DNA of 64,000 nt from Nocardia asteroides (GTDB lineage: Bacteria; Actinomycetota; Actinomycetes; Mycobacteriales; Mycobacteriaceae), in assembly GCA_019930625.1 (NCBI GenBank), contig CP082844.1, forward strand, positions 5,952,001 to 6,016,000, given 5' to 3'. The position numbers and the translations under genes were made by a program. Within the stretch, counting starts at the first letter, position 1; every line of letters starts with the position of its first letter. The notes beneath the pieces were generated by a model that did no database searches, had not been told where the DNA came from, and saw only the letters and a program-made list of their open reading frames with translations. Positions 14,601 to 33,526 of the stretch are shown in pieces.

Positions 14601-14727
14601 ATCGGTCAGCGCCGGTCGCGCCCAACCGGCGAGTTCGCGCGCACTCGTTTTCCCGCGCTCGAGGCGGTTCGCTGACCGGGTGGTGACGCATCGCGACTGG
14701 GCTGTGTCACGAGGCTATCAACTCACT

Positions 14728-14772
14728 CTCCCAGTGTGGGAGACCTACCAGCTCTTTCTCCCAGTGGGGGAG
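14728..14772. promoter_or_regulatory. Tandem palindromes upstream of the biosynthetic cluster
   Basis: CTCCCAGTGTGGGAG (14728-14742) and CTCCCAGTGGGGGAG (14758-14772) are two near-identical palindromes 30 bp apart, ending 21 bp before the ATG at 14794. The spacing of about three helical turns fits a repressor or SARP-type activator site. Which protein binds is unknown. Confidence 0.5.
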
Positions 14773-14793
14773 TAACGACCGGACGGGAACCCG

Positions 14794-15795
14794 ATGTTCC
14801 GCATCTTGCCTCCTCATGCTTTGCCCACTACCCGTGCTGATCTGCGGTTCTGTCCGGCCGTCGGGGAGGCCTTCGCCGCACTGGCCGTGATCACTCCGGC
14901 GTGGTCGGACTATGAGGCGCTGGAGCAGGTCCGGTCCGTTACCCTGCCGGAGGAGACCGCACCACTGCACCCGGCACCGCGCACGTTGGCCGGGGCACTG
15001 GACCACGCGTTCGAGATCCAGCGCGTGAGCGGGACGACAGCGCTCGTGCACAGCGTTCTCACGGCCTACCGCATCCTCCTGGAGGAGGCGATCAATGGCG
15101 GCGTGTCCCTGACCCCACGCCAGTGGGGGACATTGCGCCTGGCGTTCTCGGCTCTGTGCCGATTCGCGGTGGACGGCACCCCGCCGCCGGTGGCCGCGGC
15201 GCTGACCTGCCGGGTCATCGCCCCCCACGGTCACCGCGACTCATTGGGCAGGTGGATTCGCGGACACCATGTGTTCATCGTGCTGCTGCAATGGATTTCA
15301 ATCGCGCTGCACGTCATGGTGAGCCATGTGGCGTCGGGCGAGATTCGCCGCGCGCGTGATGCTTTGGCCACCGCATGTTTGCTCATGCGTGGCTCAGCCA
15401 TGGCTCTTCGGTTCACCGGAGATTTTCCGTCCGGCGACTACGAACAGCACATCCGTCCCACGCTGCTGCCACCGGCAGCTCCGCCGAAAATGACCGGACT
15501 ACATTGGGCTGATCACCGGTATCTGGCACGCAGCCTGACGACGGCAAGTCCGGTGCTGGCCGATCCGCCGCATCAGATGCTCGCGTGGCGGAATGCGTTT
15601 CACCGGGCATTGCAGGACACCTACGAGTCCCACAAATTCGTATGCGCCGAATTCCTCGGACCCAGCGGAAGCACGCCCGTGTCGTCGGCATCCGGCTCGA
15701 CGCCGATCGGCATGCTCAACCGCCTGAAAATTCACCGAACACAATTGGCAGTGAACCCTACGCGGGCTCCACGAGACACGGCTCTGCCCGAGTAA
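14794..15795 (+). CDS. Unrecognised protein, first gene of the cluster's plus-strand operon
   Basis: A 333-residue, mostly helical protein with no recognised domain, signal peptide or metal motif. A hydrophobic stretch (HHVFIVLLQWISIALHVMV, about residues 158-177) could be a buried or membrane helix. Codon use matches the following genes and the next ORF begins 5 bp after its stop, so it belongs to the same operon. It may be a cluster-specific enzyme or binding protein. Function unknown. Confidence 0.75.
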   Translation: MFRILPPHALPTTRADLRFCPAVGEAFAALAVITPAWSDYEALEQVRSVTLPEETAPLHPAPRTLAGALDHAFEIQRVSGTTALVHSVLTAYRILLEEAINGGVSLTPRQWGTLRLAFSALCRFAVDGTPPPVAAALTCRVIAPHGHRDSLGRWIRGHHVFIVLLQWISIALHVMVSHVASGEIRRARDALATACLLMRGSAMALRFTGDFPSGDYEQHIRPTLLPPAAPPKMTGLHWADHRYLARSLTTASPVLADPPHQMLAWRNAFHRALQDTYESHKFVCAEFLGPSGSTPVSSASGSTPIGMLNRLKIHRTQLAVNPTRAPRDTALPE

Positions 15796-15800
15796 TCACC

Positions 15801-16754
15801 ATGAAGAACTTCGCAACGTCGAACGAAACACTGCACGCGACTGTCGTACGTGGCCTGACTTCGTCGGACAAGTACATACCGACCACATGGGTGTTCGATA
15901 CCCGCGGTGGGGATCTTTACGAACACGCCATCACCGTGCCCGAATACTACTTGTCCGTGGCCGAGACGCGTCTGTTGACGGTCAGTGTCGCTGGCATAGC
16001 GGATGCGACCCGTGCCCGGACTCTGATCGACCTGGGGTGCGGCGCCGCGTCGAAATGCCGGCCCTTGCTCGAGCAGCTCCATTCGCGGGGCTTGTTGACC
16101 TGCTACGTGGCGTGGGATATCAACGAGGACGCTGTCGCGCAATCCGTCGAATTCGTGTCCGCCGCGTTTCCCGCGGTGGCCATCGAATCGATCGTGGAGG
16201 ATTTCCACGAGTCTGCTCGACCGCTGTCGTTCGGTAACCCACAGTTGGCGATCTCCTTGGGGTGCACCTTCGGCAATCTCTCGCCCGGTGAACGCCACGC
16301 TCTCTTCAGCTCACTGTGCCGCAGGCTCGGCGCATCCGGCAGTCTGCTGATCGGCGCCGATTTGCTGAAGAATACCGACAAGCTGCTGGGGGCGTACGAC
16401 GGTACCGCGCCGAGCGATTTGTGGAAGAACGCGTTGGTTCGGGCCAACGCCGAATTGGATGCTGATTTCGATCTGGACAACTTCGTCTACCATAAGCAGT
16501 GGAACGCCGCGGCCCGGCAAGTCGACCACTATCTGCGCGCAACCACGTCGCACAAGGTCAGCCTCCGGCGGATGGGAGCGACCATCGGCTTCGCGCGGAA
16601 CGAACTGATCAAGGTGGCGCACTCGGCGAAAATGTCGGCCCTTGAATGGACGCAGGAGCTGGAGACGGCGTCGTACACGGTGCAACGCTGGTGGATCGAC
16701 GATCGCGATACCTACGGGCTCTGTCTGGCTCAGGCTCAGCCATTCCGCGGATAG
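15801..16754 (+). CDS. EgtD-like amino-acid betaine synthase (SAM-dependent N-methyltransferase), altered substrate pocket
   Basis: 317 residues from ATG 15801. The EgtD (histidine N-alpha-methyltransferase) family is recognised from the FDTRGGDLYEHAITVPEYY entry segment, the SAM motif IDLGCGAASK near residue 75 and SLGCTFGNLSPGER. In the C-terminal substrate motif, EgtD normally reads TE-x-S-x-K; here it is VAHSAK, so the glutamate that contacts the histidine side chain is Ala273. The residue matching the other specificity position (Met in mycobacterial EgtD) is His243. A substrate other than histidine is therefore likely. No egtA, egtB or egtC neighbours are present, and the next gene is an N-methyl amino-acid oxidase homologue. 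Confidence 0.85.
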   Translation: MKNFATSNETLHATVVRGLTSSDKYIPTTWVFDTRGGDLYEHAITVPEYYLSVAETRLLTVSVAGIADATRARTLIDLGCGAASKCRPLLEQLHSRGLLTCYVAWDINEDAVAQSVEFVSAAFPAVAIESIVEDFHESARPLSFGNPQLAISLGCTFGNLSPGERHALFSSLCRRLGASGSLLIGADLLKNTDKLLGAYDGTAPSDLWKNALVRANAELDADFDLDNFVYHKQWNAAARQVDHYLRATTSHKVSLRRMGATIGFARNELIKVAHSAKMSALEWTQELETASYTVQRWWIDDRDTYGLCLAQAQPFRG

Positions 16755-16763
16755 TTGGCAGTC

Positions 16764-17915
16764 ATGTTCGATGTTATCGTCGTGGGTCTGGGCGGAGTGG
16801 GCAGCGCTGCAGCCTGCCATCTTGCCCAGCGCGGCTTGTCGGTCCTAGGACTGGAAAAGTATTCGCCCGTCCATCACTATGGCGCCAGCCACGGCGGCAC
16901 CCGCATCATGCGTCACCTGCAGTACGAGGACCCGGCGTACGTACCGCTGGCGAGACGAGCTTCCGAACTGTGGGAACGTGTGGAGCACGACGCAGGCACG
17001 AGAATTTTCTCGGCAATCGGGGGACTGATGGTAGGTCCCGAGAACGGGCCACTGATCGCGGGCGCCGCGAAATCCGCCGCAGAATGGGACCTGCCCTGTG
17101 AGTTGCTGGACGCGGCCGACACCCGTCGCCGTTTTCCGACTCTCAATCCCGGGCCCGGCATGGTTGCCGTGTACGACGCCGGAGCCGGGGTTGTGCACCC
17201 CGAAGCCGCGGTGGCGGCACATCACATGTTGGCCGAGCGAGCCGGCGCGCATTTGCGTTTCCGGGAACCAGTGCTCGACTGGGCGGCTCGCGGCGACGGT
17301 GTCCGGGTGCGGACTGCCAGTGCGGTCTACACCGCCAGCCGGCTGGTGCTGTGTCCAGGCGCGTGGGCCAAACATCTGATCCATGTCGGCATGGAACTGA
17401 ACGTGGAAACCATTGTTCAATGTTGGTTTCGCCCACGGGACGGGGCCGCGGACTTCGACTATGCGAAACACCCCTCCGTGATCTGGGAATGCGACAACGG
17501 CGTCATGTTCCTGTGTTGTCCCGATATGCGGGACGGTCAGGGTGTGAAGATCGGGTTCTCGTTGGGCACACAGGCAGAGGTGCCGGACAACCGAATCGCC
17601 CGTGCGGCGGATATTCAGCAGATACGCCGGTACCTGCGCAACCGCATGCCGTCGGTGGCCGGTGTGGTGCGACGGCATGCGACGTGTGTCGACGGCACGA
17701 CGGCGGATCAGCATTTCGTGGTGGCGCCGCACCCGGATCATCCGAACGTGATCGTGGGATGCGGGTTCTCCGGCCACGGATTCAAGTTCGTCCCGGTTCT
17801 CGGGGAGATCTTGGCCGATCTGGCGAGTGCCGGGACAACAACGCACCCGATCGACCTGTTCGACCCGCGACGGCCGCGAACACTGAGGATCGGACACGAA
17901 CTGCCGAAGGGATGA
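16764..17915 (+). CDS. FAD-dependent N-methyl amino acid oxidase (SolA / sarcosine oxidase family)
   Basis: 383 residues from ATG 16764; an upstream TTG lacks support. The N-terminal dinucleotide fold is IVVGLGGVGSAAACHLAQRG, followed by the family motif GASHGGTRIMR. Cys308 in TCVDGTTADQHF occupies the covalent flavin attachment position of this family, and the C-terminal GCGFSGHGFKFVP segment is typical. These enzymes oxidise N-methylated amino acids to imines with H2O2 release. Placed directly after the EgtD-like methyltransferase, it probably acts on the methylated amino acid or a later cyclic amine. The next gene starts 6 bp after its stop. Confidence 0.9.
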   Translation: MFDVIVVGLGGVGSAAACHLAQRGLSVLGLEKYSPVHHYGASHGGTRIMRHLQYEDPAYVPLARRASELWERVEHDAGTRIFSAIGGLMVGPENGPLIAGAAKSAAEWDLPCELLDAADTRRRFPTLNPGPGMVAVYDAGAGVVHPEAAVAAHHMLAERAGAHLRFREPVLDWAARGDGVRVRTASAVYTASRLVLCPGAWAKHLIHVGMELNVETIVQCWFRPRDGAADFDYAKHPSVIWECDNGVMFLCCPDMRDGQGVKIGFSLGTQAEVPDNRIARAADIQQIRRYLRNRMPSVAGVVRRHATCVDGTTADQHFVVAPHPDHPNVIVGCGFSGHGFKFVPVLGEILADLASAGTTTHPIDLFDPRRPRTLRIGHELPKG

Positions 17916-17921
17916 CCTCCG

Positions 17922-19730
17922 ATGGCCGACATCGCGGACCGAGCGAGTGTGCAGTTGCTGGCCACCGACCTGGCCGAGGCGGTGATACCGTATTTCAGCC
18001 CGGGTGGCGCCCGGGTACGGCTCGGCGTGAACACCACCGGTTACGACGACACCGCGGCCGAATTGGAGGCGTTCGCCAGGCCGCTGTGGGGACTGGCTCC
18101 GCTGGCCGCGGGCGGCGGGGACTTCACGCACTGGGAGACCTATCGCCGCGGCCTCGCGTCCGGCACAGACCCGGCCCATCCGGAGTACTGGGGTCGGCCC
18201 GGTGACCGCGATCAGCGGATCGTCGAGGCGGCGGCATTGGGTTTCGCGCTGGCCCTTGTGCCGGAACAACTCTGGGATCCGCTGACCGGGCCGCAGCGTG
18301 ATCGGGCCGCTGCGTGGCTGTCCTCAGTGCTCGACTGCGCGACCGTCGAGAACAATTGGCGATTCTTCCCGGTGCTGGTCGGGCTGGGCCTGGACCGGGT
18401 CGGCGTGCGATACGAACGCGCGGCCAACGTGGCGCGCCTGGACTGGCTGGAGAGCTGCGCGCTCGGTGACGGCTGGTACGCCGACGGGCTCACCGAACGA
18501 CGCCGCGACTACTACGTGTCCTTCGCGATGCACTTCTACGGGTTGGTGTACGCGGCACTGGCCGGGGAACGCGACTCCGCACGCGCCGAACGGATGCGTG
18601 CGCGGGCGAGCGCGTTCGCCGCGGATTTCCGGCACTGGTTCGCCACCGACGGCGCGGCTGTTCCCTTCGGCCGCAGCCTCACCTATCGGTTCGCCCATGT
18701 CTCGTTCTGGGGTGCGCTGGCCTTTGCCGATGTAGAGGCGCTGCCCTGGGGTGAGGTCAAGGGATACCTGCTGCGCAACCTGCGGTGGTGGCGCGACCGT
18801 ACGATCACGACGGCCGACGGGCTCCTGTCGGTGGGATACGGCTACCCGCAGCCCTTGCTGGCCGAGCAGTACAACGCCCCCGGATCGCCGTACTGGGCGA
18901 TGAAGGCGTTTCTTCCGCTGGCCCTGCCCGCCGACCACGCCCTGTGGACGGCTCCGGAGCAGCCCGCCCCCCAGCTGCCGGAAACCAGTACCCAACCGCA
19001 CGCGGGTGTCGTGCTGATGCGTTGCGAGCAGGGGCGGCAGGCGATCGCGCTCGGTTCCCTGCAGTACCACCAGTGGGCGCGGCACAGCGAGGCGAAGTAC
19101 GCGAAGTTCGCGTACTCCTCGTGGTTCGGCTTCAGCGTGATGTCCGGCGCGCACGGCCTCGCGCAGGGGGCGTTCGACAGCACGCTGGCGCTCAGCGACG
19201 ACGGTGGCGAACATTACCGGACCCGCGAGGTGCCGCTGGATCCGGTGGTGCACGACGGCTTGGTGTACTGCCGCTGGCGGCCGTGGCCGGACGTCGACGT
19301 GGAGACCTGGGTGCAGGCCGATCCGCCGTGGCACGTGCGCGTGCATCATATCCGCAGTCCGCGCGCGCTGGTCACTGCGGAGGGCGCGTTCGCGGTGGAC
19401 CGCGACACTGTCGCAGGTCCGCCGACCACCTCGGCCGGCCCGGGGCACGCCCGAATCTCCGGTCCCACGGGACTGTGCGTGATCGATGACCTCGACGGCG
19501 ATCGAACCGGCCAGCTCGTGGCGGCCTTTCCCGGCACGAACGTCATGGCCCGCCGCACTGTGATCCCCACCCTGCTCGGAACCCACCCACCCGGCGAGTT
19601 CTGGCTTGCCTGTGCGGTTCTCGGCCTCGCCGATGCCGTCGGCGGTGGCGACGGTGACGGCTGGCCCCAGCCGCCGAGGCGCCCCGAGCGGTCCATGTTG
19701 CTGGCCGCGCGGTCGACGCCGGACGCCTGA
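17922..19730 (+). CDS. DUF2264-domain protein
   Basis: A 602-residue soluble protein matching the DUF2264 layout: an aromatic-rich alpha-toroid N-terminal half (FARPLWGLAPLAAGG, ENNWRFFPVLVGLGL) and a beta-rich C-terminal half (SLQYHQWARHSEAKYAKFAYSS). The family is structurally related to polysaccharide-lyase/heparinase-type proteins and lacks an assigned reaction. It is the last gene of the plus-strand operon. In this context it might remove or rearrange a sugar or carboxylate, but that is speculation. Confidence 0.85.
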   Translation: MADIADRASVQLLATDLAEAVIPYFSPGGARVRLGVNTTGYDDTAAELEAFARPLWGLAPLAAGGGDFTHWETYRRGLASGTDPAHPEYWGRPGDRDQRIVEAAALGFALALVPEQLWDPLTGPQRDRAAAWLSSVLDCATVENNWRFFPVLVGLGLDRVGVRYERAANVARLDWLESCALGDGWYADGLTERRRDYYVSFAMHFYGLVYAALAGERDSARAERMRARASAFAADFRHWFATDGAAVPFGRSLTYRFAHVSFWGALAFADVEALPWGEVKGYLLRNLRWWRDRTITTADGLLSVGYGYPQPLLAEQYNAPGSPYWAMKAFLPLALPADHALWTAPEQPAPQLPETSTQPHAGVVLMRCEQGRQAIALGSLQYHQWARHSEAKYAKFAYSSWFGFSVMSGAHGLAQGAFDSTLALSDDGGEHYRTREVPLDPVVHDGLVYCRWRPWPDVDVETWVQADPPWHVRVHHIRSPRALVTAEGAFAVDRDTVAGPPTTSAGPGHARISGPTGLCVIDDLDGDRTGQLVAAFPGTNVMARRTVIPTLLGTHPPGEFWLACAVLGLADAVGGGDGDGWPQPPRRPERSMLLAARSTPDA

Positions 19731-19743
19731 CGATCGGCGTCCT

Positions 19744-22056
19744 TTACACCGCTGATCCAGTGTTGTTGCTACCCAGGGCTTCCCACAGTTCGCTGCGCGA
19801 GATCGGCATGCGGTCGATCCGCAACCCCACGGCGTCGTCGATCGCCGACGCCACCACGGCAAGCACCGGCAGGGTGCCGGCCTGACCGACCCCGGTGACC
19901 CCGATCGGGTTCGCCGGGCAGACGTGGTCCGGTACACGTGCCAGCCGCACCGGGGGGATCTCCGCCACGCTGGGCAGCAGATACTCCGTCAGGGTCGGAG
20001 TGACCAGGCGCCCGTCCGCGTCCAGCGGGAGACGCTCGTAGAGCGCCTCGCCGAGACCGTGGGCGATGCCGCCGAGCACCTGTCCGTCCACGATCCCCGG
20101 ATCGATGACCGTCCCGCAGCCGGTCACGGCGACGTAGTCGACGATCTCGATCCCGGCGGTCGCCACATCGATCTCGACCACGGCGGCGTGCACCCCGTAG
20201 CCAACGGCGGAATCCGCTGCCGTGTAGTAGGCGGTGGCGGCCAGGCCGGGGTGCTCGCCGTCCGCCAGCGGCAACGGATCGTCGAGATCGCCGGTGTCAT
20301 GGGCGAATTGGACGAGCACGGGGTGGCACAGCCGGGCTATCGCGGCCAGGTTCAGCCGGTCGTGTGGGCGGGACCGCGAGACCACCACGCCGTCGCGCAG
20401 ATCCAGGTCGACGATGTCGCAGGCCAGCTGGTGCGCGGCGGCTCGCAGTGCTTTGTTTCGCACCTTGTGGCACGCGATCGCCACGGCCGAGCCAGCCATG
20501 ACCGCACTCCGGGAGGCCACCGTGCCAGGGGTGAACGGGAATCGCTCGATGTCGCCGCAGGTCACATGGACCCAATGTGGCGACACGCCGAGTTCGTGGG
20601 CGGCGATCCTGGCAAGGGTCGTGTGCTGGCCCTGGCCCTGGCCGGTCAGCCCGACGAACACGTGGACGGCGCCATCCGGGTCGACCCGGACGTGGGCGCC
20701 CTCGTAGGGGCACGGCCCCCGCCCGGTCCGTTCGACGTAGCAGGCCAACCCGACCCCGAGGTGCCGGCCGCGGGCGCGTGCGGCCTCGCGTCGCGCCTCG
20801 ATCGTTGCCCAGCCCACGAGGTCCGTGGCCTGCCGCAGCGCGGAGGGATAGTCGCCGCCGTGGTGGGGGATCGGGCCGGGATAGGGCAGGTCCACCGGGC
20901 GGATGAGGTTGATGCCGCGGACCGCGGCGCGGTCGCGTCCCAGATGCGCGGCGATCGCATCCATGGTCCGTTCGATCACGAACATCGCCTGCGGTTTGCC
21001 GGCGCCGCGCACCGGGGTGACCGGCGGCATGGTCGTATACAGGACCTCGCACTCGATCCGGACAGCGTCGATGCGGTACAGGCCGCACAGGTGATTTGCG
21101 GTGTTGACCGGCACCCGGATCCCCACGGGTGTGTAGGCCCCGGCGTCGTGCCAGAACCGCACGTCCAGGGCGAGTACCCGCCCGACATCGTCGAATGCCA
21201 CCCGCACCTTGTGGAGCTGCCCGCGCTCATGTGTCGAGGCGAAATGCTCTTTGCGGTCCTCCACCCACTTCAGCGGTCGGTCCAGTCGTCGCGCGGCCCA
21301 CGCCACCAGGACCTCCTCGGGCCACGGGTGCACGCTTTTCACGCCGAATCCGCCGCCCACGTCGGGGGCGACCACCTCGAGCCTTGACTCCGGGAGGTCC
21401 AGGTGGTCGGCCAGCAGTCGCCGCAGACTCGCCGGGGTCTGGGTGGCGGAGTAGACACGCAGGCCTTCGTCGGTTGGGTGCGCGTAGACGCCCCGCATCT
21501 CCATCGGAGTGGACGCGGTGCGCTCCACGTCCAGCTGCACGGTGAGGGTGTGCGGTGCGGTCGCGAGCACCGCCGCAGCGTCGCCGTGGACCTGGATGAA
21601 GCGCCCGGCGATGTTTCCGGGAACATCGGCATGCACCAGCCGGTTGGCTGCGCGGGCGGCCTCGATGCCCACTACGGGCGGCGTCGGGTCGTAGGTCACC
21701 TGGACCCGGTCGCGGGCGTCCTCGGCGACGTACCGATCCTCAGCCACGATCATGACCACCGGCTGACCGGCATGGTGCACCTCGCCGCCGGCCAGCGGGC
21801 GCGATGTCCGCGGCTGTGTCAGCGCCGCGTGGGGTTCGAGCTGCGGCAGTGGTGCGGCTATCGATTCCGGCAGGTCCTCGAACGTAATGATCGCGATAAC
21901 GCCGTCGACGGCCCGCGCGCCGGTGCTGTCCACGTCTACGATCCGGGCGTGCGGATGGGGAGACCGGACGAACACCACAGCTGGTGCACCGTGCCCGAGG
22001 TCATCGAGATACCGGCCGCGTCCCGTGAGCAGCCGCTCGTCCTCACTGCGGGTCAT
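19744..22056 (-). CDS. Xanthine-dehydrogenase-family molybdenum hydroxylase, large subunit with catalytic Glu replaced by Gln
   Basis: 770 residues. The molybdopterin-binding subunit is recognised from GGGFGVK, VRGAGKPQAMFVIER, GQGQGQHTTLARIAAHE and the C-terminal cofactor loop. That loop, normally GVGE with the base-catalytic glutamate, reads GVGQAG here (Gln725, codon CAG at 19882-19884). Hydroxylation normally needs this Glu, so activity may be altered or lost. ATG 22056 overlaps the 2Fe-2S subunit gene by 14 bp. The motif set is closer to form-II CoxL-like and aldehyde-oxidase-like enzymes than to CO dehydrogenase, because there is no AYxCSFR loop. Likely a cluster oxidase. Confidence 0.92.
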   Translation of the reverse strand: MTRSEDERLLTGRGRYLDDLGHGAPAVVFVRSPHPHARIVDVDSTGARAVDGVIAIITFEDLPESIAAPLPQLEPHAALTQPRTSRPLAGGEVHHAGQPVVMIVAEDRYVAEDARDRVQVTYDPTPPVVGIEAARAANRLVHADVPGNIAGRFIQVHGDAAAVLATAPHTLTVQLDVERTASTPMEMRGVYAHPTDEGLRVYSATQTPASLRRLLADHLDLPESRLEVVAPDVGGGFGVKSVHPWPEEVLVAWAARRLDRPLKWVEDRKEHFASTHERGQLHKVRVAFDDVGRVLALDVRFWHDAGAYTPVGIRVPVNTANHLCGLYRIDAVRIECEVLYTTMPPVTPVRGAGKPQAMFVIERTMDAIAAHLGRDRAAVRGINLIRPVDLPYPGPIPHHGGDYPSALRQATDLVGWATIEARREAARARGRHLGVGLACYVERTGRGPCPYEGAHVRVDPDGAVHVFVGLTGQGQGQHTTLARIAAHELGVSPHWVHVTCGDIERFPFTPGTVASRSAVMAGSAVAIACHKVRNKALRAAAHQLACDIVDLDLRDGVVVSRSRPHDRLNLAAIARLCHPVLVQFAHDTGDLDDPLPLADGEHPGLAATAYYTAADSAVGYGVHAAVVEIDVATAGIEIVDYVAVTGCGTVIDPGIVDGQVLGGIAHGLGEALYERLPLDADGRLVTPTLTEYLLPSVAEIPPVRLARVPDHVCPANPIGVTGVGQAGTLPVLAVVASAIDDAVGLRIDRMPISRSELWEALGSNNTGSAV

Positions 22057-22540
22057 CGTGGCGCTCCCCGCGCAAGATGGCGGCGGCGCGCAGCGCCGCG
22101 GTCACGATCGGCCGGTAGCCCGTACAGCGGCAAAGGTTTCCGGCGAGCACATCCTCGAGGTCCTGCGTGGACGGGCGGGGATTGTCGCGCAGATACGCCA
22201 CGAGGGTCGTGAGGACGCCCGGGGTGCAAAATCCGCACTGCAACCCGTGCTCGACCTGCATGGCCTGCTGCAGTGCCCGCAGGGCAGGCCCGGCCAGCCC
22301 TTCGACCGTGGTGATCGCGTACCGCTGTGCGGCGACGGCCAGTAGCAGGCACGAGCGCGCCGGTGCGCCATCCACCAGCACCGTGCAGGCACCGCACACG
22401 CCCTCCTCGCAGCCGACGTGGGTAGCGGTCAGCCCGAGGTCGTGGCGCAGACAGTCCGACAGCAAGCGTCGGTCGCAGACGCGCACCAGGTGCGCCGCGC
22501 CGTTGACCCGCAGCGTGATCACGTGGGCGTCATCGGGCAT
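22043..22540 (-). CDS. 2Fe-2S subunit of the molybdenum hydroxylase
   Basis: About 165 residues from ATG 22540. The N-terminal plant-type ferredoxin cluster CEEGVCGACTV and the C-terminal cluster CGFCTPG with CRCTGY give all eight cysteines. It passes electrons from the molybdenum centre to the FAD subunit. It overlaps both neighbours (11 and 14 bp), the usual coupled order FAD - 2Fe2S - Mo. Confidence 0.95.
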   Translation of the reverse strand: MPDDAHVITLRVNGAAHLVRVCDRRLLSDCLRHDLGLTATHVGCEEGVCGACTVLVDGAPARSCLLLAVAAQRYAITTVEGLAGPALRALQQAMQVEHGLQCGFCTPGVLTTLVAYLRDNPRPSTQDLEDVLAGNLCRCTGYRPIVTAALRAAAILRGERHDDPQ

Positions 22541-23405: not shown

Positions 23406-23541
23406 GCGGCAACCGTCGTGCAGTCCGCTGACAGCGGCGTGACGCCGGCCCATCGCGGACCGTCAGGGGAACGTCAGCCGCGACGCCTGTGCCGTCACCA
23501 ACAATCACACCTGCCACGTTCCGCCGAGACAGGAGCCACAC

Positions 23542-24714
23542 GTGCGAGTGCTGTGCACCGTGACGGGGTCACCGTCACACGGACGGGCCATGCTCCCGAT
23601 GGCTCGTGCCCTCGTCCGAGCCGGGCACGAGGTGGCCGTGGTCACCTCGGAGTATGTGGCCGAGACGTTCGCCGGCGAGCCGATGCGCGTGCATCCCGTC
23701 TTCCCTACCATGGCGCAGGTGCTGCGCGGCATGCGCGCCGGACTGTCCGAAGTACTCACGCAAGACCTCACCCCCTACCTGGAGACGGTCCACTTCGTCG
23801 GCGGTCCGCACGTAACGGCCGCGTTCCACGCGATCATGCCGGTGGCGCGGGCCTGTGCCCCGGACCTCGTGCTGCGCGACGGCGCCGACCTGGCCGGGTG
23901 CCTGATCGCGGAAGCACTTGGCGTGCCGCACCTTTCGGCACCGTCGGGCGCCACCAACATCCTGGACCCAGAAGGGGTCCTGCCACTGGTGAGCGCCCGC
24001 CGTGCCGAGGTGGGGTTGCCTGCGCAGGACGCGATGGCCATCTTCCGGTATGGCCGCCTGGATGCCATGCCGCCCCAATACTCGTGCGCCCGGTACGAAA
24101 TACCACTGCCGTACGCCTACCGCCAGCCACTGTGGGAGTACGACGGCAGCATGCCGGAGATACCCACTGATAAACCGCTGGTGCTCGCCACCTTGGGTAC
24201 CGCGCTGCCGATGTTCGCCGAGATCCGTCGGCAGGGACTGCCCGATGACGAGCACACTCCGCGTATGCGAGAACCGTTGCGCGCCATCATCGAGGGACTG
24301 TCCCGGGTGGACTGTCATGCTGTGGTGGCCACCGGCGGCACCCCGGTCGATGACGTCCCGGTCGGCGCGAATGTGCACCTGGTCGACTGGATTCCGCAAC
24401 GGCGTGCCCTGCAGCGGTCACACCTGCTGGTGACCCACTGTGGATACAACTCGGTCCGTGAGGCGTTCAGTGCCGGGGTGCCGATGGTCGCGGTACCGCA
24501 GTTCGCCGACCAGGCGCATCATGCGGCGTTGATCGAAGGGTTCGGCCTGGGGCGGCGTGCCGAGCAGACCGCGGACGGTGTCGCCGGGGCGTGTCAGCGG
24601 GTGCTGGCGGATGAAACCATCCGCGAGCGGATGCGCAGCGCACATGGTGCGATGCTGGCGCTGCCCGACGAGGACGGCATCGTGGCGCAGCTGCAGAACC
24701 TGGTCACACCGTGA
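23542..24714 (+). CDS. GT1-family glycosyltransferase
   Basis: 390 residues from GTG 23542, with AGGAG 6 nt upstream. The GT-B fold is recognised from the N-terminal GSPSHGRAMLPMARALVRAGHEV and the C-terminal nucleotide-sugar signature VDWIPQRRAL, THCGYNSVREAFSAGVPMV and PQFADQ. Such enzymes glycosylate natural products using UDP- or TDP-sugars. Together with the UDP-sugar dehydrogenase and PIG-L deacetylase downstream, a uronic acid or N-acetylhexosamine donor is plausible. Its 3' end overlaps the convergent asnB 3' end by 11 bp. Confidence 0.9.
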   Translation: MRVLCTVTGSPSHGRAMLPMARALVRAGHEVAVVTSEYVAETFAGEPMRVHPVFPTMAQVLRGMRAGLSEVLTQDLTPYLETVHFVGGPHVTAAFHAIMPVARACAPDLVLRDGADLAGCLIAEALGVPHLSAPSGATNILDPEGVLPLVSARRAEVGLPAQDAMAIFRYGRLDAMPPQYSCARYEIPLPYAYRQPLWEYDGSMPEIPTDKPLVLATLGTALPMFAEIRRQGLPDDEHTPRMREPLRAIIEGLSRVDCHAVVATGGTPVDDVPVGANVHLVDWIPQRRALQRSHLLVTHCGYNSVREAFSAGVPMVAVPQFADQAHHAALIEGFGLGRRAEQTADGVAGACQRVLADETIRERMRSAHGAMLALPDEDGIVAQLQNLVTP

Positions 24715-26551
24715 GCCGTGGGGAGAACACGTCGATCCAGGTGGCGATGTCCAACGCATGATCGATGCCGTTGCGGGCGGTGGGTGACAGACTCTCCGGC
24801 GGGTGCCGCACGACCCCGTGCAGCCAGTCCCGGTCCACGATGTCCCACACCGAATGGTTCGGCTGTGCCAGCACCTCTCGGGCCTGCTGTTGCAGCGCAC
24901 GGGCATACCCCGTGTCTTGCGTGGACGGATACGGGCTCTTCTTGCGCCGCAGCACCGGCTCCGGCAGTACCTTGCGCGTCGCCGCGCGCAGCAGGCTTTT
25001 CTCCCGGCCGTCGAACACCTTCATGTGCCATGGCGTCCCGTACACGTATTGGACCAGGCGGTGGTCACAGTACGGCACCCGCACCTCCAGCCCGACGGCC
25101 ATGCTCAACCGGTCTTTGCGGTCGAGCAGGTCCCGCAGGAACCTCGTCAGCGTCAAGTAGTAGCGGGCACGCATGCGCCGCTCGGTTGCGGTGTCCTCGG
25201 ACAGGCTGTCGACCTCCGCCAATGCGGTGGCGTACTGGTCCCGGCTGTACTGGGCGAGATCCAGCTTGCGGGCGAGGTCTGGGTGGAGCATGTCGGTGGG
25301 GTCCGGCCAGCGCATGGACGGGCCCATCGCAGGCAGCCACGGGAAGGTGTCGTCGTCGCCGTCGGGTGCGGTATGCAGCCACGGATAGCCGCCGAACACC
25401 TCGTCGGCCGCCTCACCGGACAGCGCCACCGTCGAGTGCTCGCGGATCGCCCGGAACAGCGCCAGCGATGACATGTCCAGGTCGGCCAGTGGGACCGGGA
25501 GTTCGCGCGCGGTGATCACCTCGGTGCGCACCGCCGGGTCGGTCAGACCCGCGGTGTCCAGCACGACCTCGCGGTGCACCGATCCGACATGGTCCGCCAC
25601 CAGATGTACGAAGGGGGTGTCGCGGGCCGGGCGCACGACGTCACCGCGGAACGCGTCGGCGTGTCCGGCGAAATCGACGGAAAAGGTCCGCACCCGCTCC
25701 CGCTGTGCGGTGAGGTGCCGGGCCGACAGAGCCGTGATCGTGCTGGAATCCAAGCCACCGGACAACAGGACACACCTGGGGACGTCCGCGGTGAGCTGCT
25801 GGGTGACGACCTCGTCGAGCAGGCCACGGATGGTGTCCACGGTCGTCGCGCGATCGTCGGTGTGCTCGTCGGTGCGCAGCCGCCAGTATGTGCGCTCACG
25901 CAGACCCTCACGGGTGATGGCAATCGTGGTGCCGGGCAGCACGTCGCGCAGGCCGGCCCACATGGCGTGCCCGGGTGTGTGGGGTTTGAACGCCAGCATT
26001 TCCCGGAGACCGTCGATATCGACCCGCCGCGCGGGCAGCGGATGGGCGAAGATGGCCTTGGGTTCGGAGGCGAACAGCGCGCCGTGCTCGGTCGGCCACA
26101 CATACAGCGGTTTCACGCCCAGCCGGTCCCGGACCAGCAGCAGCCGCTCCACTCGCGCGTCCCAGATGGCCATGGCGTACATGCCGGTCAGCCGGTCGAC
26201 GAAATCGTCACCCCACTGGAGGTATGCGTGCAGGACGACTTCGGTGTCGCACAGAGTGTCGAACCGATGCCCGTGGGCCCGCAATTCGGCGCGCAGTTCC
26301 CGATAGTTGTAGGTCTCTCCGCTGTAGACCATCACCACGGGGCCGTGCGGCGTGCGGACGCTGACCGGTTGGGCACCGCCGTCGACATCGATCACCGCGA
26401 GGCGACGATGACCGAGTGCCACCCGGTGATCCATCCACAGACCGTGCCCGTCCGGACCGCGGGGCGCCAGGGTCTGGGTCATGCCGGCCAGCGTTGGTCC
26501 CTCGCCGGTCAGGTCACGGTCGAACGCCAGCCACCCGGTGATTCCGCACAT
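24704..26551 (-). CDS. Asparagine-synthase-type glutamine amidotransferase
   Basis: A 615-residue class II amidotransferase. The nucleophile Cys2 is present (MCGITGW), with APRGPDGHG and a YSGETYNYREL variant of the glutaminase loop. The synthetase PP-loop is LLSGGLDSSTI, followed by GEAADEVFGGYPW. The family makes amides from carboxylates with ATP and glutamine. Located between a glycosyltransferase and a SARP rather than in primary metabolism, it may amidate a uronic acid or scaffold carboxylate, as AsnB-like proteins do in moenomycin biosynthesis. It starts 2 bp after the SARP gene's stop, so the two are co-transcribed. Confidence 0.92.
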   Translation of the reverse strand: MCGITGWLAFDRDLTGEGPTLAGMTQTLAPRGPDGHGLWMDHRVALGHRRLAVIDVDGGAQPVSVRTPHGPVVMVYSGETYNYRELRAELRAHGHRFDTLCDTEVVLHAYLQWGDDFVDRLTGMYAMAIWDARVERLLLVRDRLGVKPLYVWPTEHGALFASEPKAIFAHPLPARRVDIDGLREMLAFKPHTPGHAMWAGLRDVLPGTTIAITREGLRERTYWRLRTDEHTDDRATTVDTIRGLLDEVVTQQLTADVPRCVLLSGGLDSSTITALSARHLTAQRERVRTFSVDFAGHADAFRGDVVRPARDTPFVHLVADHVGSVHREVVLDTAGLTDPAVRTEVITARELPVPLADLDMSSLALFRAIREHSTVALSGEAADEVFGGYPWLHTAPDGDDDTFPWLPAMGPSMRWPDPTDMLHPDLARKLDLAQYSRDQYATALAEVDSLSEDTATERRMRARYYLTLTRFLRDLLDRKDRLSMAVGLEVRVPYCDHRLVQYVYGTPWHMKVFDGREKSLLRAATRKVLPEPVLRRKKSPYPSTQDTGYARALQQQAREVLAQPNHSVWDIVDRDWLHGVVRHPPESLSPTARNGIDHALDIATWIDVFSPRLTV

Positions 26552-26553
26552 GG

Positions 26554-27459
26554 CTAGTCCGTCTCGTCGCGTGACAGCGCGGTGTCCTGGCGCAGGATCG
26601 CGAGATAGGTTTCCCGCAGGGGTGGGGTTGGTTCGACACCGTACAGGGCTCGGAGGCGATCACGGAGGCACCAGTAGACCTCGAGCGCTTCTGCTTGGCG
26701 GCCTGCCGAATACAGCGCCGTCATGTAGAGCTGGTGGAAATACTCGCGATCTCGGTGCCGGTCCACCAGCATCGAGAGCTCCGGGATGAGCTCGCGATGC
26801 CGGCCGGCACGCAGCTCGGCCTCCAGGACTCGCTCGGTCAGCAGCGACCGCTGCTGCTCCAGATGAGTGCGCTCGGTCGAGCCGAGAGCCCCGAGCTGCA
26901 CATTGATGAAAGCGTCCGTATCGGTCCACAACGCCAGCGCGCTGCGGCCGACACCGATTCCGTCCGGTGACCCGGTGCCGAGCAGGTGCAATGCGCGTTG
27001 CGTCAGCTGCCGGAACTCCGCCACATCGAAACCGGTATCGCCGAGGTCCAGCCGGTACGCACCGGAGGGCCCATGTTCGATCGTGATCTGCTCGCCCCAT
27101 CCACGGAGGAACTTCTTGAGCCGCATGACACCGGACTGCAGGGCCCAGTCGGGCCGGTGCGGTGGTTGTCCGTCCCACAGCTCCGTGATCAGCTTGTCCG
27201 TCCACACGTACGTGCCCGCATTCACCAGCAGCGCCACCAACAGCTTGGACCGCATCGTGGAGGTCAGGATCTCTACTCGATCACCCCGACGGATAGTCAA
27301 CGCTCCCAATGCCTGGATACGCAGGGGTGCCTCGCTGGATAGTCGCGTCCCTTCCCGGACCAGGGCCAGCGAGGATCGCATTGCCGAAACGGGTTGGGCC
27401 GAGTCGCTCATCCAGGACCCCGGTGCGCCGAAAGCGGGCGAAATATTGTTGTGCACCAT
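26554..27459 (-). CDS. SARP-type pathway activator (winged helix + BTAD)
   Basis: About 301 residues. An OmpR-like winged-helix DNA-binding domain (about 45-135, LGALTIRRGDRVEIL, SKLLVALLVNAG, ELWDGQPP) is followed by a bacterial transcriptional activation domain (about 140-300, DVAEFRQLTQRAL, EYFHQLYMTALYSAGRQAEAL). There is no ATPase or TPR extension, so it is a small SARP. These proteins switch on adjacent antibiotic clusters by binding direct repeats. ATG 27459 is used; GTG 27462 is possible. Confidence 0.9.
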   Translation of the reverse strand: MVHNNISPAFGAPGSWMSDSAQPVSAMRSSLALVREGTRLSSEAPLRIQALGALTIRRGDRVEILTSTMRSKLLVALLVNAGTYVWTDKLITELWDGQPPHRPDWALQSGVMRLKKFLRGWGEQITIEHGPSGAYRLDLGDTGFDVAEFRQLTQRALHLLGTGSPDGIGVGRSALALWTDTDAFINVQLGALGSTERTHLEQQRSLLTERVLEAELRAGRHRELIPELSMLVDRHRDREYFHQLYMTALYSAGRQAEALEVYWCLRDRLRALYGVEPTPPLRETYLAILRQDTALSRDETD

Positions 27460-27789
27460 CACATCTGATGTCCTGACCAGCTAAACAAGCTCAGACCGAA
27501 TGGTCTGCGGGATTGATGATAGCTGCGGCGCCGCTGCAATGTTTGCTACTGCTGGGAACTCTGTGGCCGCTCGGAACTCCTCCGGAAGCCGGTGCTTTGC
27601 CGGGTCGCGCGGGCTTCATCGCGGTAGCCACGCCATTTGTCGGCCATGAATCCGGTCGGTGACGTCGTCGAGAATGTTGCGGGCCGGTACCGATCAGCTC
27701 CAACACCATGTCGCTGGCGATCAACCGGCCGGTTGCTCGGTGCCCGCGGTCACACCGGCGGCCTGCGCCGCGGAAACCGGCAGGGTGCG
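27460..27789. other. Intergenic upstream of the SARP gene
   Basis: About 330 bp between the SARP start and the flavin monooxygenase stop, both on the minus strand. It is expected to hold the SARP-asnB promoter. No supported gene. Confidence 0.45.
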
Positions 27790-28953
27790 CTAGATCCACG
27801 GATCATCGACCGTGGCACCGAACTCGGCACGCCCCACCTGGCTGAGCACCCGGGGCCAGTCGTTGACCACGTGCACGCTGCCCGCGTGCACGTGTCGCCA
27901 GAAGCTCGCCATCGGGCCTGCCGAGGACAACGCGGTGGCCCCGGATCGGGTGAACAACTCCTCGACCGCCCGGACAACCCGGTCGGTGCCCAGCGTCTGA
28001 TCGCGCCGCGTCCGCAGCCGCAAGTGGTACGGGATCCCGTCGCCTCGCTGCGCATACGCCAGTTGCTCGGCGATGTTGTGCTCCACCTGGAGGGTCGCCG
28101 CGTCGATGTCGGACGCGGCGCGCATCGACCGCACGTGCACGAACGGGTCGTCGACAGCGTGCTTTCCGTCCGAGATCCGCACCCGTGACCGGACCCAGTC
28201 CGTGTGCTCCTGGTAAAAACCTTCCGCCGCCCCGATGATCGACATGGTGATCGTCGTCGGGAAGACGCTACCCATGGCCAACCGATACAACGGAGCGTGA
28301 TTGACCTGGTGGCCGGGACCGCGCAGTTGTGTCCAATCCCGCGCACTCAACACTCGGTGATCGGGCACGAACGCGCCCTCCACAACGATGTCGTTGCTCC
28401 CGGTGCCACGCAGACCGACCGAGTCCCACACGGCGTGAACCGTGTAGTCACTGCGCGGTATCAACAGGGTCAGGTACTCCGGGTCCGCACCTTCACGAGT
28501 GCACATCGCACCGAGCAACGCCCACTGGCAGTGGTCGCAACCGGACGAGAAACTCCACCGTCCCCGCAGCTCGTATCCACCGCGGACAGGGCACACTTGC
28601 CCGACGGGAGCGTACGAGGAACTGACCAGCGTGTCCGGGTCGTCCCCCCAGACGTCGTCCTGTGCCTGTGGGGAGAACAACGCGATCTGCCACGGGTGCA
28701 CCCCGACGATGGCGGCCACCCAGCCGGTATTCGGGCAGGCGGACGAAATCCTCCGGACGATCCGATAGAAGTCCAGCGGATTGGACTCGTAGCCGCCGAC
28801 GCGCGCGGGTTGCAGCATTCTGAAGAAGCCCGCGGAAATCAGCGCCGACATGGTCGGCTCGGGCACTCGCGCGGCCCGGTCGGTATCGTCCGCACGATCC
28901 CGGATGAGCGGCAGCACCTCGCGGACCAGTTCGAACACGGTCTTGCTGTGCAT
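27790..28953 (-). CDS. Group-D flavin monooxygenase (acyl-CoA-dehydrogenase fold)
   Basis: About 387 residues. ATG 28953 is preceded by GGAGGGG at about 6 nt. The acyl-CoA dehydrogenase fold is clear (LQPARVGGYE, FSSGCDHCQWALLGA, VGLRGTGSNDIVVEGAFVPD), but it lacks the dehydrogenase catalytic Glu context. It resembles reduced-flavin-dependent monooxygenases such as HsaA, DszC and the sugar N-oxygenase KijD3. It would hydroxylate an aromatic ring or oxidise an amine. A separate flavin reductase is not visible in the window. Confidence 0.85.
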   Translation of the reverse strand: MHSKTVFELVREVLPLIRDRADDTDRAARVPEPTMSALISAGFFRMLQPARVGGYESNPLDFYRIVRRISSACPNTGWVAAIVGVHPWQIALFSPQAQDDVWGDDPDTLVSSSYAPVGQVCPVRGGYELRGRWSFSSGCDHCQWALLGAMCTREGADPEYLTLLIPRSDYTVHAVWDSVGLRGTGSNDIVVEGAFVPDHRVLSARDWTQLRGPGHQVNHAPLYRLAMGSVFPTTITMSIIGAAEGFYQEHTDWVRSRVRISDGKHAVDDPFVHVRSMRAASDIDAATLQVEHNIAEQLAYAQRGDGIPYHLRLRTRRDQTLGTDRVVRAVEELFTRSGATALSSAGPMASFWRHVHAGSVHVVNDWPRVLSQVGRAEFGATVDDPWI

Positions 28954-29065
28954 ATTCCCCCTCCACGGTGACGGGCGTGATCCTGGCAAGCGTGATCGTC
29001 GATGCGGTCGCTGGCGTGCGCGTGACGCGACCGTTTGCGGCCCGCGACTCGGCGCGCATCACCCA

Positions 29066-29785
29066 ATGGTCAGCGCGTCGCACCACTGTGTCGGCATGCC
29101 GGTATTCGGGCTGACACAGGGTGAGCGGGTCGTCGTCGTCGCGCCGCATCCCGACGACGAAACCATCGGCCCTGGTGGCACGATCGCGCGGATGACTGCC
29201 GAGGGCCTGCAGGTGCACGTCCTCTGCGTCACGGTCCGTGCCAACGGCGGGGTGGCCGACCCGCAGGAGCGGGTCACGGAGTTCGAACAGGCGTGCGCGG
29301 CGCTCGGCGTGACGACCGCCGCGGTCGTCTGGATCGATCAGGCCGGCGACATGGACATCACGACTCGGCAGCGCCGGCTGGTCGACGTGATCACAACCCA
29401 CGAGCAGGCGTCGCTGGCCGCGGTGCGTCCCACCGCCCTCATGATCCCGGCGGAGGCCGGATACCACCAAGATCATTGCGCGGTCTTCCGCGCTGGGTTC
29501 GCCGCCGCGCGGCCACGTCCCTCGGTGCCCACCCCGCGGGTGGTCCTGGGGTACCGCGGAGTGGAGGAGCACTGGTCGCCCACCCACAACGCGTGGCCGA
29601 TCACGGTCGACACCACCGACTTCTGGGCCACCAAAGAGCAAGCCCTGCGCTGTTATCGGTCCCAGATCCGGCCCGATGGCCAGCCCCGATCCCTGGAGCA
29701 CATCCGGCTCGTCGACGCCGCGGTCGGAGCAGGCTACGGCCTCCGCTACGCCGAGTTGTTCCGCCCGTACCGACTGGCGTGGTGA
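29066..29785 (+). CDS. PIG-L family deacetylase
   Basis: About 239 residues (ATG 29066; ATG 29096 also possible). The zinc site motif APHPDDE is at the N terminus and the distal His appears in AGYHQDHCAVFRAG. The family N-deacetylates GlcNAc conjugates or cleaves related amides, as in mycothiol and teicoplanin pathways. Its stop overlaps GTG 29782 upstream of the UDP-sugar dehydrogenase ATG, so the two are translated together. This suggests work on the same sugar. Confidence 0.9.
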   Translation: MVSASHHCVGMPVFGLTQGERVVVVAPHPDDETIGPGGTIARMTAEGLQVHVLCVTVRANGGVADPQERVTEFEQACAALGVTTAAVVWIDQAGDMDITTRQRRLVDVITTHEQASLAAVRPTALMIPAEAGYHQDHCAVFRAGFAAARPRPSVPTPRVVLGYRGVEEHWSPTHNAWPITVDTTDFWATKEQALRCYRSQIRPDGQPRSLEHIRLVDAAVGAGYGLRYAELFRPYRLAW

Positions 29786-29787
29786 TC

Positions 29788-31062
29788 ATGACGCACGCAG
29801 CACACGAGAAGGTGACCGTCGTCGGGATCGGTTACACCGGCCTGCCGCTGGCAGTGGCACTGGCACATGCGGGTGACCACGTGTGGGGTGTGGACGTCGA
29901 CCGACGCCGGGTGGCCGCGGTCCAGCATGGAGACAGTCCGGTCGACACGGTCACCGCCGCGGAAATCCGGTCCGTGGCCGGCCATCTGCATCCCACCACC
30001 GACCCCGGCGTGCTGGCGGACAGCGCGATCGTCGTCGTGTGCGTGCCGACGCCGGTCCACGAGACGGACAACACCCCTGATCTGCGCCCACTGATCTCGG
30101 CGGTCACCACGATCCGCGACCACCTGCGTCCGGGACAGCTCGTCGTGGTCGAGTCCACCGTGCCCCCGGGCACCACCGTCGATCTGCTGAGGCCGATCCT
30201 CGAAGAGTCGGGTCTGGTCGCCGGAATCGACTTCAACCTGGCGTACTCGCCGGAACGCATAGATCCGGGCAACACCAGGTTCCGGCTGACAACGACTCCC
30301 CGCGTAGTCAGTGGGCTGACCCCGGCCTGCCGCGACCGAGCCGCGATGTTCTACCGGCGGGTGGTCGCGAACATACACACCACAGTCGGAATTGCCGAAG
30401 CGGAAACAACGAAGATCCTCGAAAACGTCTTTCGCCAGGTGAACATCGCCTTGGTGAACGAATTTGCCCAGGTATGCCATGAGCTGGACATCGATATCTG
30501 GGATGTCATCGCCGCGGCAGCCACAAAACCCTACGGTTTCATGCCGTTTCGGCCAGGCGCGGGTGTCGGCGGGCACTGCATTCCCGTCGACACCCTGCTG
30601 ATGATCCACCACACCACCACTCGGCTGGGCCGGGCGCTGCGGCTGGCGGAGACGGCGCACGCCATCAACGCCGACATGCCCAGATGGGTGGCCGATCGCA
30701 TCGTCAAGGACCTCGACGACCGAGGCGTGACACTGCCCGACGCCACCGTCCTGTTGCTCGGCGTCACCTACAAGCCCAACGTCGCCGACACTCGCGGAAC
30801 GCCCGCCATCCCGCTCACCGAGGAGCTGCTGCGCCGCGGCTTGACGGTCACCTATCACGACCCGTACATCCCTGAGCTGCGCTGGGCCGGACAGCGGTTG
30901 CGCCGCTGCGACGATCTCGCCGCTGCCGTCGGCTCCGCGGATCTCGTGGTCGTAGTCCAACGTCACAGGGACTACGACGCGCAGACGCTGGCCTCGGCCA
31001 GAAGGCTGTTCGACGCCACCGGACCGGCAACCGACCATCACCGCGGCACCGCGCAGGGTTGA
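29788..31062 (+). CDS. UDP-sugar 6-dehydrogenase (WecC/UDP-glucose dehydrogenase family)
   Basis: 424 residues from ATG 29788. The N-terminal NAD fold is VVGIGYTGLPLAVALA, the linker reads YSPERIDPGN, the catalytic cysteine is Cys264 in GVGGHCIPVD, and the C-terminal domain has LLGVTYKPNVADTRGTP. It oxidises the C6 hydroxyl of a UDP-hexose or UDP-N-acetylhexosamine to the uronate. The family section is closest in look to UDP-GlcNAc/ManNAc dehydrogenases. It probably supplies the donor for the cluster glycosyltransferase. Confidence 0.93.
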   Translation: MTHAAHEKVTVVGIGYTGLPLAVALAHAGDHVWGVDVDRRRVAAVQHGDSPVDTVTAAEIRSVAGHLHPTTDPGVLADSAIVVVCVPTPVHETDNTPDLRPLISAVTTIRDHLRPGQLVVVESTVPPGTTVDLLRPILEESGLVAGIDFNLAYSPERIDPGNTRFRLTTTPRVVSGLTPACRDRAAMFYRRVVANIHTTVGIAEAETTKILENVFRQVNIALVNEFAQVCHELDIDIWDVIAAAATKPYGFMPFRPGAGVGGHCIPVDTLLMIHHTTTRLGRALRLAETAHAINADMPRWVADRIVKDLDDRGVTLPDATVLLLGVTYKPNVADTRGTPAIPLTEELLRRGLTVTYHDPYIPELRWAGQRLRRCDDLAAAVGSADLVVVVQRHRDYDAQTLASARRLFDATGPATDHHRGTAQG

Positions 31063-33133: not shown

Positions 33134-33526
33134 CCGCTGACGACCTGTCCTCCCACAGCTCCGGCGTCGAGCATACGTGCGGGGGCAAATCTGAGGCAAA
33201 CCTCAGAAATCGCGCCGGGTGTAGCACCGCGCTCGGTATCGGGGAATAGCGAGCACGGCCGGAATCTGGGAGGAAGGGAGAAGCCCGAGAATGGCCAACA
33301 GAGCCCCTCCCGAAGCCGAGGCTACTTCCGCGCGACACGCCAGTCGCAGCGAAGCGACTCCCAACCATGACCAGCCCGTCATCGCGCCGGGTCCGAACAA
33401 CCACAGAACATGACGCGCATTAGGTCAGGGGGTAGAGGTCAGTAGTAATCGCACGGAAAAACAACGACGATGGCTTATCAGCAGCGATGTTCGTCACCGT
33501 GACCGGCCAAACGCCTGACCACCAAC
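33134..33526. other. Intergenic between transglutaminase gene and repeat copy A
   Basis: About 390 bp with no recognised gene. Two short overlapping ORFs have no motifs. It may contain the transglutaminase promoter. Confidence 0.4.

Follow-up and report, generated by a model that had tools for sequence, protein, structure and literature searches.

A candidate SARP-associated gene cluster of Nocardia asteroides for a glycosylated metabolite of an aromatic amino acid

What might thirteen adjacent genes of Nocardia asteroides make together when no assembly-line enzyme is among them? The genes lie in a stretch of 64,000 nucleotides, here called the window (positions 5,952,001-6,016,000 of contig CP082844.1, a 7.36-Mb contig of the two-contig genome GCA_019930625.1), where they fill positions 14794-31062 as 13 intact, full-length, in-frame open reading frames (ORFs). 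We consider it likely that they belong to a cluster for a glycosylated metabolite derived from an aromatic amino acid. A more specific route is put forward tentatively, namely a SARP-controlled cryptic cluster for an amidated, uronosylated and dehydrated glycoside of a tyrosine-derived isoquinoline.

Gene content of the locus

The preliminary description of this DNA had counted eleven adjacent, intact and mostly coupled genes. Their place, intactness and named families hold, while the count becomes 13 ORFs, or eleven if the three molybdenum hydroxylase subunits are taken as one. Tight coupling is seen for U (our name for the first gene) and the EgtD-like, SolA-like and DUF2264 genes, which are separated by 5, 0 and 6 bp, for the overlapping molybdenum hydroxylase genes, for AsnB and SARP (2 bp) and for the PIG-L and UDP-sugar dehydrogenase genes (2 bp), but the region as a whole consists of several transcription units on both strands. 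An 88-bp divergent promoter lies between the molybdenum hydroxylase FAD subunit and the glycosyltransferase (GT). The likely true starts are 15801 (not 15585) for the methyltransferase, 29096 for PIG-L and about 29788 for the UDP-sugar dehydrogenase.

The earlier statement that no nonribosomal peptide synthetase (NRPS), polyketide synthase (PKS) or terpene core is present was borne out, as none was found among the 30 ORFs, a subset of those in the window, that were scanned with Pfam. Its general class, a glycosylated amino-acid-derived cluster, remains the best reading in view of the SARP, the SfmD-type U, the GT related to Ktm28 and the conserved sugar cassette, whereas the histidine link that it implied and its protein of no recognised domain were not supported. 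The features are as follows.

14715-14772, no strand: two 28-nt direct repeats with the dyad CTCCCAGTGNGGGAG, a candidate operator preceding the first operon
14794-15795, plus strand: U, SfmD-type histidine-ligated heme aromatic hydroxylase, predicted tyrosine 3-hydroxylase
15801-16754, plus strand: EgtD-family alpha-N-methyltransferase with altered substrate pocket
16755-17915, plus strand: SolA/MSOX-family N-methyl amino acid oxidase, proposed FsqB-like oxidative cyclase
17922-19730, plus strand: DUF2264 plus DUF2264_C protein (former GH154), predicted beta-D-glucuronate 4,5-dehydratase
19744-22056, minus strand: molybdenum hydroxylase large subunit, Gln725 for the catalytic Glu
22043-22576, minus strand: molybdenum hydroxylase [2Fe-2S] subunit (Pfam)
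22530-23453, minus strand: molybdenum hydroxylase FAD subunit (Pfam)
23457-23477, no strand: direct repeat GGACCGTCAG/GGAACGTCAG with 11-bp spacing, candidate SARP site within the 88-bp divergent promoter
23542-24714, plus strand: GT1 glycosyltransferase, predicted uronosyltransferase
24704-26551, minus strand: AsnB-type glutamine amidotransferase
26554-27462, minus strand: SARP transcriptional activator (PF03704)
27790-28989, minus strand: group-D flavin monooxygenase, HsaA-type
29096-29785, plus strand: PIG-L/LmbE deacetylase
29788-31062, plus strand: UDP-sugar 6-dehydrogenase

Hydroxylase, methyltransferase and oxidase of the first operon

U has no match in the versions of Pfam and NCBIfam that were scanned and had been described as having no recognised domain; the protein database assigns it PF27188, and it belongs to the family of SfmD-type heme hydroxylases. 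With phmmer, residues 2-312 of its 333 align at E=1.7e-39 with SfmD, the saframycin-pathway enzyme filed as "3-methyl-L-tyrosine peroxygenase" (PDB 6vdp), and the idea of an orphan protein was rejected. H241, H280 and C284 of U are aligned with H274, H313 and C317 of SfmD, which we take to be its two histidine heme ligands and its thioether cysteine, an assignment that fits the chain numbering. These three positions of U are the same in all 12 sequences that were aligned, and neither MarE nor TDO matched U at E<=1 in PDB. In the available part of its description SfmD is grouped with histidine-ligated heme aromatic oxygenases and uses H2O2. We predict U to be a tyrosine 3-hydroxylase.

Close relatives of U are few, with one single further relative in the protein database (7,999 candidates scored). 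At 15 genome loci holding relatives of U, a group of large genes was present in 12 and a group of methyltransferases in 13; where the proteins of a locus were scanned with Pfam, the large genes encode a three-module NRPS (L035) and the methyltransferases are O-methyltransferases (L035, L032). None of the other 12 cluster genes was found at these 15 loci by tblastn. Within the genus, matches at E<=1e-8 occurred in 12 of 150 genomes, the host and 11 others whose matches are 28-34% identical to U, and the 17-20-kb surroundings of these 11 distant relatives (L156-L166) held none of the other cluster genes at E<=1e-6. All such locus searches (U, DUF2264, AsnB, the weak U relatives and the Nocardia genome G042 described below) were carried out with tblastn at E<=1e-6 on about 10-21 kb, a scope in which a distant or divided cluster would go unnoticed. 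The genome searches are samples of the available genomes, except for the 150-genome genus search with U, which gave no sign of a larger pool.

The second protein carries PF10017 and scores 212.1 bits, below the NCBIfam EgtD cut-off of 290.9. Y39, M252 and E282 (M. smegmatis numbering) are invariant in 30 of 30 aligned EgtDs (29 from genus loci and the host's own, with the remaining genus matches left unaligned) and are F, H and A in the window protein; N166 and S284 are kept. E282 of EgtD has a role in imidazole binding. Two of the three replaced positions (M and E) distinguish PDB entry 4pip from 4pim, E-to-A being among the 4pip changes, and we take 4pip to be a tryptophan-accepting variant. 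With Y39, M252 and E282 lost, the enzyme probably methylates an aromatic amino acid other than histidine; the implied histidine link is thereby unsupported, and a histidine- or ergothioneine-derived product was set aside. A review, in its available part, states that EgtD structures located the specificity sites, tryptophan included. The host has a separate, ordinary EgtD at 2,937,821, which is 34% identical to the window protein, and EgtD-family matches at E<=1e-40 were found in 147 of 148 genus genomes, at 31-37% identity where listed and leaving the window copy apart.

The SolA-like oxidase matches NF008425 (N-methyl-L-tryptophan oxidase) with 384.2 bits against a cut-off of 257. Among PDB entries, monomeric sarcosine oxidase (MSOX; 7exs, E=4.8e-67) comes first and N-methyltryptophan oxidase (MTOX; 2uzz, E=2.9e-54) second, with NikD at about 4e-24. 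Words of the GFSGHGFK motif and of the motif around the flavin-linking Cys are present, the place of this Cys being judged from its motif alone. A later role of this enzyme in NikD-like aromatisation is possible, but NikD matches it far more weakly than MSOX does.

The fungal flavin amine oxidase FsqB has an active site described, in the available part of its account, as MSOX/MTOX/NikD-like. According to the same source FsqB converts N-methyl-DOPA fully into an isoquinoline, and a meta-hydroxyl is needed for its cyclisation because N-methyl-tyrosine, which is without this group, is merely demethylated. Directly upstream of the SolA-like gene, in the same tight operon, are the genes for the predicted meta-hydroxylase and the predicted N-methyltransferase. 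Taken as a set and by analogy with FsqB, the three genes would match the needs of N-methyl-DOPA synthesis and FsqB-type cyclisation, and this is the main argument for the proposed route.

From the gene content, the families and the residues found we infer the reactions, their order and their product. U would hydroxylate tyrosine at position 3 to L-DOPA, and the EgtD-like enzyme would place one methyl group on the alpha-nitrogen. The SolA-like flavoenzyme would then oxidise the N-methyl group to an iminium, and attack by the catechol would close a tetrahydroisoquinoline-3-carboxylate, as in FsqB chemistry.

The same genes can be read as part of a glycosylated aromatic-amino-acid cluster without an isoquinoline. 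The EgtD-like enzyme would then make a mono- or dimethyl amino acid or a betaine, with tryptophan as a possible substrate, and the SolA-like enzyme would oxidise or demethylate it, as N-methyltryptophan oxidase does. The NF008425 match above its cut-off fits such a role, as does the E-to-A pocket change in common with 4pip, presumably a tryptophan-accepting variant. However, U is closest to a hydroxylase of a tyrosine derivative and lacks a match to MarE or TDO at the threshold given above, and a pair of methylation and demethylation steps would by itself be futile. We regard this reading as unlikely, though a serious contender.

Uronate genes and tailoring enzymes

In the tyrosine-derived isoquinoline route, the bicyclic acid would be oxidised, amidated and glycosylated by the remaining enzymes. 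The PDB relatives of the DUF2264 protein are two glucuronate dehydratases and one entry filed as a beta-galactosidase. All ten active-site residues of BcGDH are conserved in it (10/10, by eye from the alignment), it has a second domain, DUF2264_C, and no signal peptide was seen by eye. According to the BcGDH paper (2025), all members of GH154 are proposed to be uronate dehydratases, which form a 4,5 double bond. It also describes ten inactive alanine variants of BcGDH, with a warning by its authors that the test substrate is poor. BT_3677, it further notes, has a second domain and is active on 1-O-methyl-glucuronate. We predict that the window protein is a beta-D-glucuronate 4,5-dehydratase; a glycosidase freeing the aglycone was ranked lower, since the family is proposed to be dehydratases. 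Matches at E<=1e-20 were found in 30 of 298 order genomes, host included, the window copy standing alone in the sampled host genus and family, and the 13 loci around the best matches held no other cluster gene. BcGDH of B. caccae and BT_3677 share family with the window protein, but they serve polysaccharide utilisation coupled to GH88, whereas the window gene is a neighbour of a SARP gene in a genome with no match to the GH88-type domain PF07470, the usual GH154 partner (GH88/GH105), for which 3 of 14 control genomes gave matches.

The GT shares 52% identity with a protein of Amycolatopsis and 46-47% with Ktm28 of the conkatamycin cluster; a search of plasmids at E<=1e-40 gave no relative of it. 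In the available part of the conkatamycin work, Ktm28 is a predicted UDP-glucuronosyltransferase and Ktm30 a putative UDP-glucose dehydrogenase, and the product carries a sugar identified as D-glucuronic acid (GlcA). In Nocardia G042, relatives of PIG-L (57% identity), the UDP-sugar dehydrogenase (60%) and the GT (44%) are encoded next to each other as a cassette; another GT (47%) follows after a few genes, and modular PKS genes are further out. This cassette is the sole part of the cluster found conserved elsewhere in the genomes examined. PIG-L keeps its HPDD and HxDH motifs; at E<=1e-45 it matched one of 298 order genomes, the host itself (G042 is not among the genomes shown). This Nocardia locus (L107:396-7002 and L106), in which PKS genes accompany PIG-L, a UDP-sugar dehydrogenase and two GTs, may be related to conkatamycin-type clusters.

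The UDP-sugar dehydrogenase matches TIGR03026. Its best-scoring specific profiles are of the UDP-N-acetylmannosamine (ManNAc)/N-acetylglucosamine (GlcNAc) type, all below their cut-offs, and its nearest PDB entries are of the UDP-ManNAc type, Cap5O and CalS8. Its product may be UDP-GlcA, which the likeness of the GT to Ktm28 favours, or UDP-N-acetylglucosaminuronate (UDP-GlcNAcA), since PIG-L would fit an N-acetyl sugar. In either case the UDP-uronate would be transferred by the GT, PIG-L would deacetylate it if the sugar is N-acetylated, and the DUF2264 protein would remove water from the bound uronate to give a 4,5-unsaturated sugar.

AsnB keeps Cys2 and SGGLDSS and would amidate a carboxylate. 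Matches of 44-58% identity occur in 57 of 148 genus genomes, host included, and 14 AsnB loci (13 in other genomes and the host's second copy) held no other cluster gene. The flavin monooxygenase is a diverged HsaA (NF045629, 520 bits, cut-off 450) with matches at E<=1e-120 in 43 of 98 genus genomes including the host, at 48-58% identity and at 56% to the host paralogue. Together with the molybdenum hydroxylase it would adjust the oxidation of the ring.

For the large subunit of the molybdenum hydroxylase, the nearest PDB entry is quinoline 2-oxidoreductase (1t3q, E=3.3e-115). A search of 98 genus genomes gave no further match to this subunit at E<=1e-200, and matches at E<=1e-170 occurred in 61 of 296 class genomes, host included. 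One Glu has a catalytic role in molybdenum hydroxylases. In the window this residue is Gln725 (codon CAG, 19882-19884, minus strand), while Glu stands there in four PDB alignments and in 29 of 29 relatives fetched from the 60 other matching genomes (loci of about 4-5 kb), and the window subunit would therefore be retuned, crippled or mis-sequenced.

Regulation, surroundings and other readings

SARP sites have a layout of direct repeats spaced by 11 bp, and a CGTCAG direct repeat with this spacing lies in the 88-bp promoter between the molybdenum hydroxylase operon and the GT. CGTCAG-N5-CGTCAG is exact only there, with 12 more places in the window at 1-2 mismatches on either strand. At the 11-bp spacing 5 positions (4 places) in the 64 kb reach 9/10, and at other spacings the numbers are 2-25. 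Support for this candidate SARP site is moderate because the spacing is unenriched in the window. The 28-nt repeats before U are 30 bp apart and 82% identical, each ending in the dyad; their motif has no third exact match in the window, and at least three matches at up to 2 mismatches were found in 4 of 100 shuffles, the motif having been taken from the site itself.

DNA similarity to three congeners stops just past the phosphoenolpyruvate carboxykinase (PEPCK) gene, at about 5.6 kb, save for short scattered matches, and fragments of transposases lie at 13.9, 42.6 and 52.1 kb. The region is lineage-specific and probably acquired. The PEPCK gene itself (3274-5106, minus strand) is a second copy, the host's other copy being at 1,636,665, and two or more copies are present in 4 of 6 congeners searched. 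Nearby, 5885-8335 (plus strand) is a single ORF that joins a heavy-metal P-type ATPase to a hemerythrin domain at the C-terminal end. On the far side, 31847-33199 (minus strand) has a C-terminal match to microbial transglutaminase and adjoins an MspA-like ORF (31059-31655); it was not assigned to the cluster.

Insertions might also have joined two functionally separate neighbouring sets, a left operon (U to DUF2264 plus the molybdenum hydroxylase) and a right set for sugar and tailoring. Such a history, which we judge rather improbable, agrees with the transposase fragments and the loss of congener similarity after PEPCK, with another Nocardia in which the sugar cassette is near modular PKS genes and has no left operon beside it, and with relatives of U that occur without sugar genes. 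Yet the DUF2264 gene, for which uronate chemistry is predicted, belongs to the left operon, whereas the genes for making the uronate are on the right, and the molybdenum hydroxylase FAD subunit and the GT are parted only by the 88-bp promoter.

Less probable again is a decaying or silent cluster whose full product is no longer made. Gln725 and the mobile-element remnants speak for decay, but each of the 13 ORFs has its full length, and AsnB, PIG-L, SolA, the UDP-sugar dehydrogenase, the GT and U carry the motifs that were checked in them. A catabolic locus degrading a glucuronide or an isoquinoline compound is very improbable: the molybdenum hydroxylase is nearest to quinoline 2-oxidoreductase and the characterised GH154 members act in polysaccharide breakdown, but the SARP, the GT, the UDP-sugar dehydrogenase, AsnB and the SfmD-type hydroxylase indicate biosynthesis, and the PF07470 search found no GH88-family enzyme in the genome to complete uronide breakdown.

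Several points weigh against the isoquinoline route. EgtD enzymes trimethylate histidine according to the literature in part available, S284 of the EgtD pocket is retained, and a betaine could not undergo the proposed oxidation; the EgtD-like protein also had no relative but itself at E<=1e-60 among 5,717 candidates scored. The SolA-like enzyme is nearest MSOX and MTOX while FsqB is nearest fructosyl amine oxidases, so the sequence offers no cyclase marker. Gln in place of the catalytic Glu is an unexplained warning sign, the nature of the uronate is ambiguous, G042 has the sugar cassette but no left operon with it, and transposase fragments lie near the cluster. Profile scans found neither a flavin reductase nor an exporter among the 13 ORFs. 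Finally, there is no conserved orthologous cluster: the complete set was not found at the 15 U, 13 DUF2264, 14 AsnB and 11 weak-U Nocardia loci or in the genome searches. Lack of the gene set in any other genome had been named beforehand as counting against a cluster; the full set was indeed in none examined, but PIG-L, the UDP-sugar dehydrogenase and the GT do recur together in another Nocardia.

Known systems share parts of the locus. The fumisoquin (fsq) cluster of Aspergillus fumigatus reportedly encodes an N-methyltransferase and a phenol hydroxylase as well. Its flavin amine oxidase step, the cyclisation of N-methyl-DOPA by FsqB in the available part of that work, is the one proposed here; it differs in being fungal and in the structural nearness of FsqB to fructosyl amine oxidases, and no NRPS-like protein was found in the window cluster. 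With saframycin-type clusters the likeness is the homology of U to SfmD, while the difference lies in the genes for NRPS, O-methyltransferase and berberine-type oxidase at the U-relative locus that was scanned for them (L035). The conkatamycin (ktm) cluster and the G042 PKS locus share a related GT and UDP-sugar dehydrogenase, the latter locus PIG-L as well, but conkatamycin is, by its partly available description, a polyketide with ordinary GlcA. Capuramycin-type clusters, in the part of the gene tables and text available, have a GT and three "putative CO dehydrogenase" genes and lead to an unsaturated mannuronate whose double bond was suggested to come from 4,5-dehydration of the transferred sugar; they differ in following a nucleoside pathway, in having an NRPS in 2 of 3 clusters and in showing no DUF2264 in that part, so that this parallel is suggestive only.

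No paper with both SfmD and EgtD was found in the literature searched, nor did we meet there a bacterial isoquinoline route free of assembly lines or a GH154-type enzyme in biosynthetic tailoring. It is doubtful, but conceivable, that the locus combines both, with berberine-bridge-like logic (a tyrosine 3-hydroxylase, a repurposed EgtD and an MSOX-family oxidative cyclase) in the first and a GH154-type dehydratase tailoring the sugar of a natural product to a 4,5-unsaturated form in the second. Cluster finders that depend on core enzymes may overlook such loci. If the proposed route is true, EgtD-fold enzymes would gain a role in bacterial alkaloid N-methylation, the MSOX family would include a bacterial oxidative cyclase, and GH154 dehydratases would gain a role in natural-product glycosylation.

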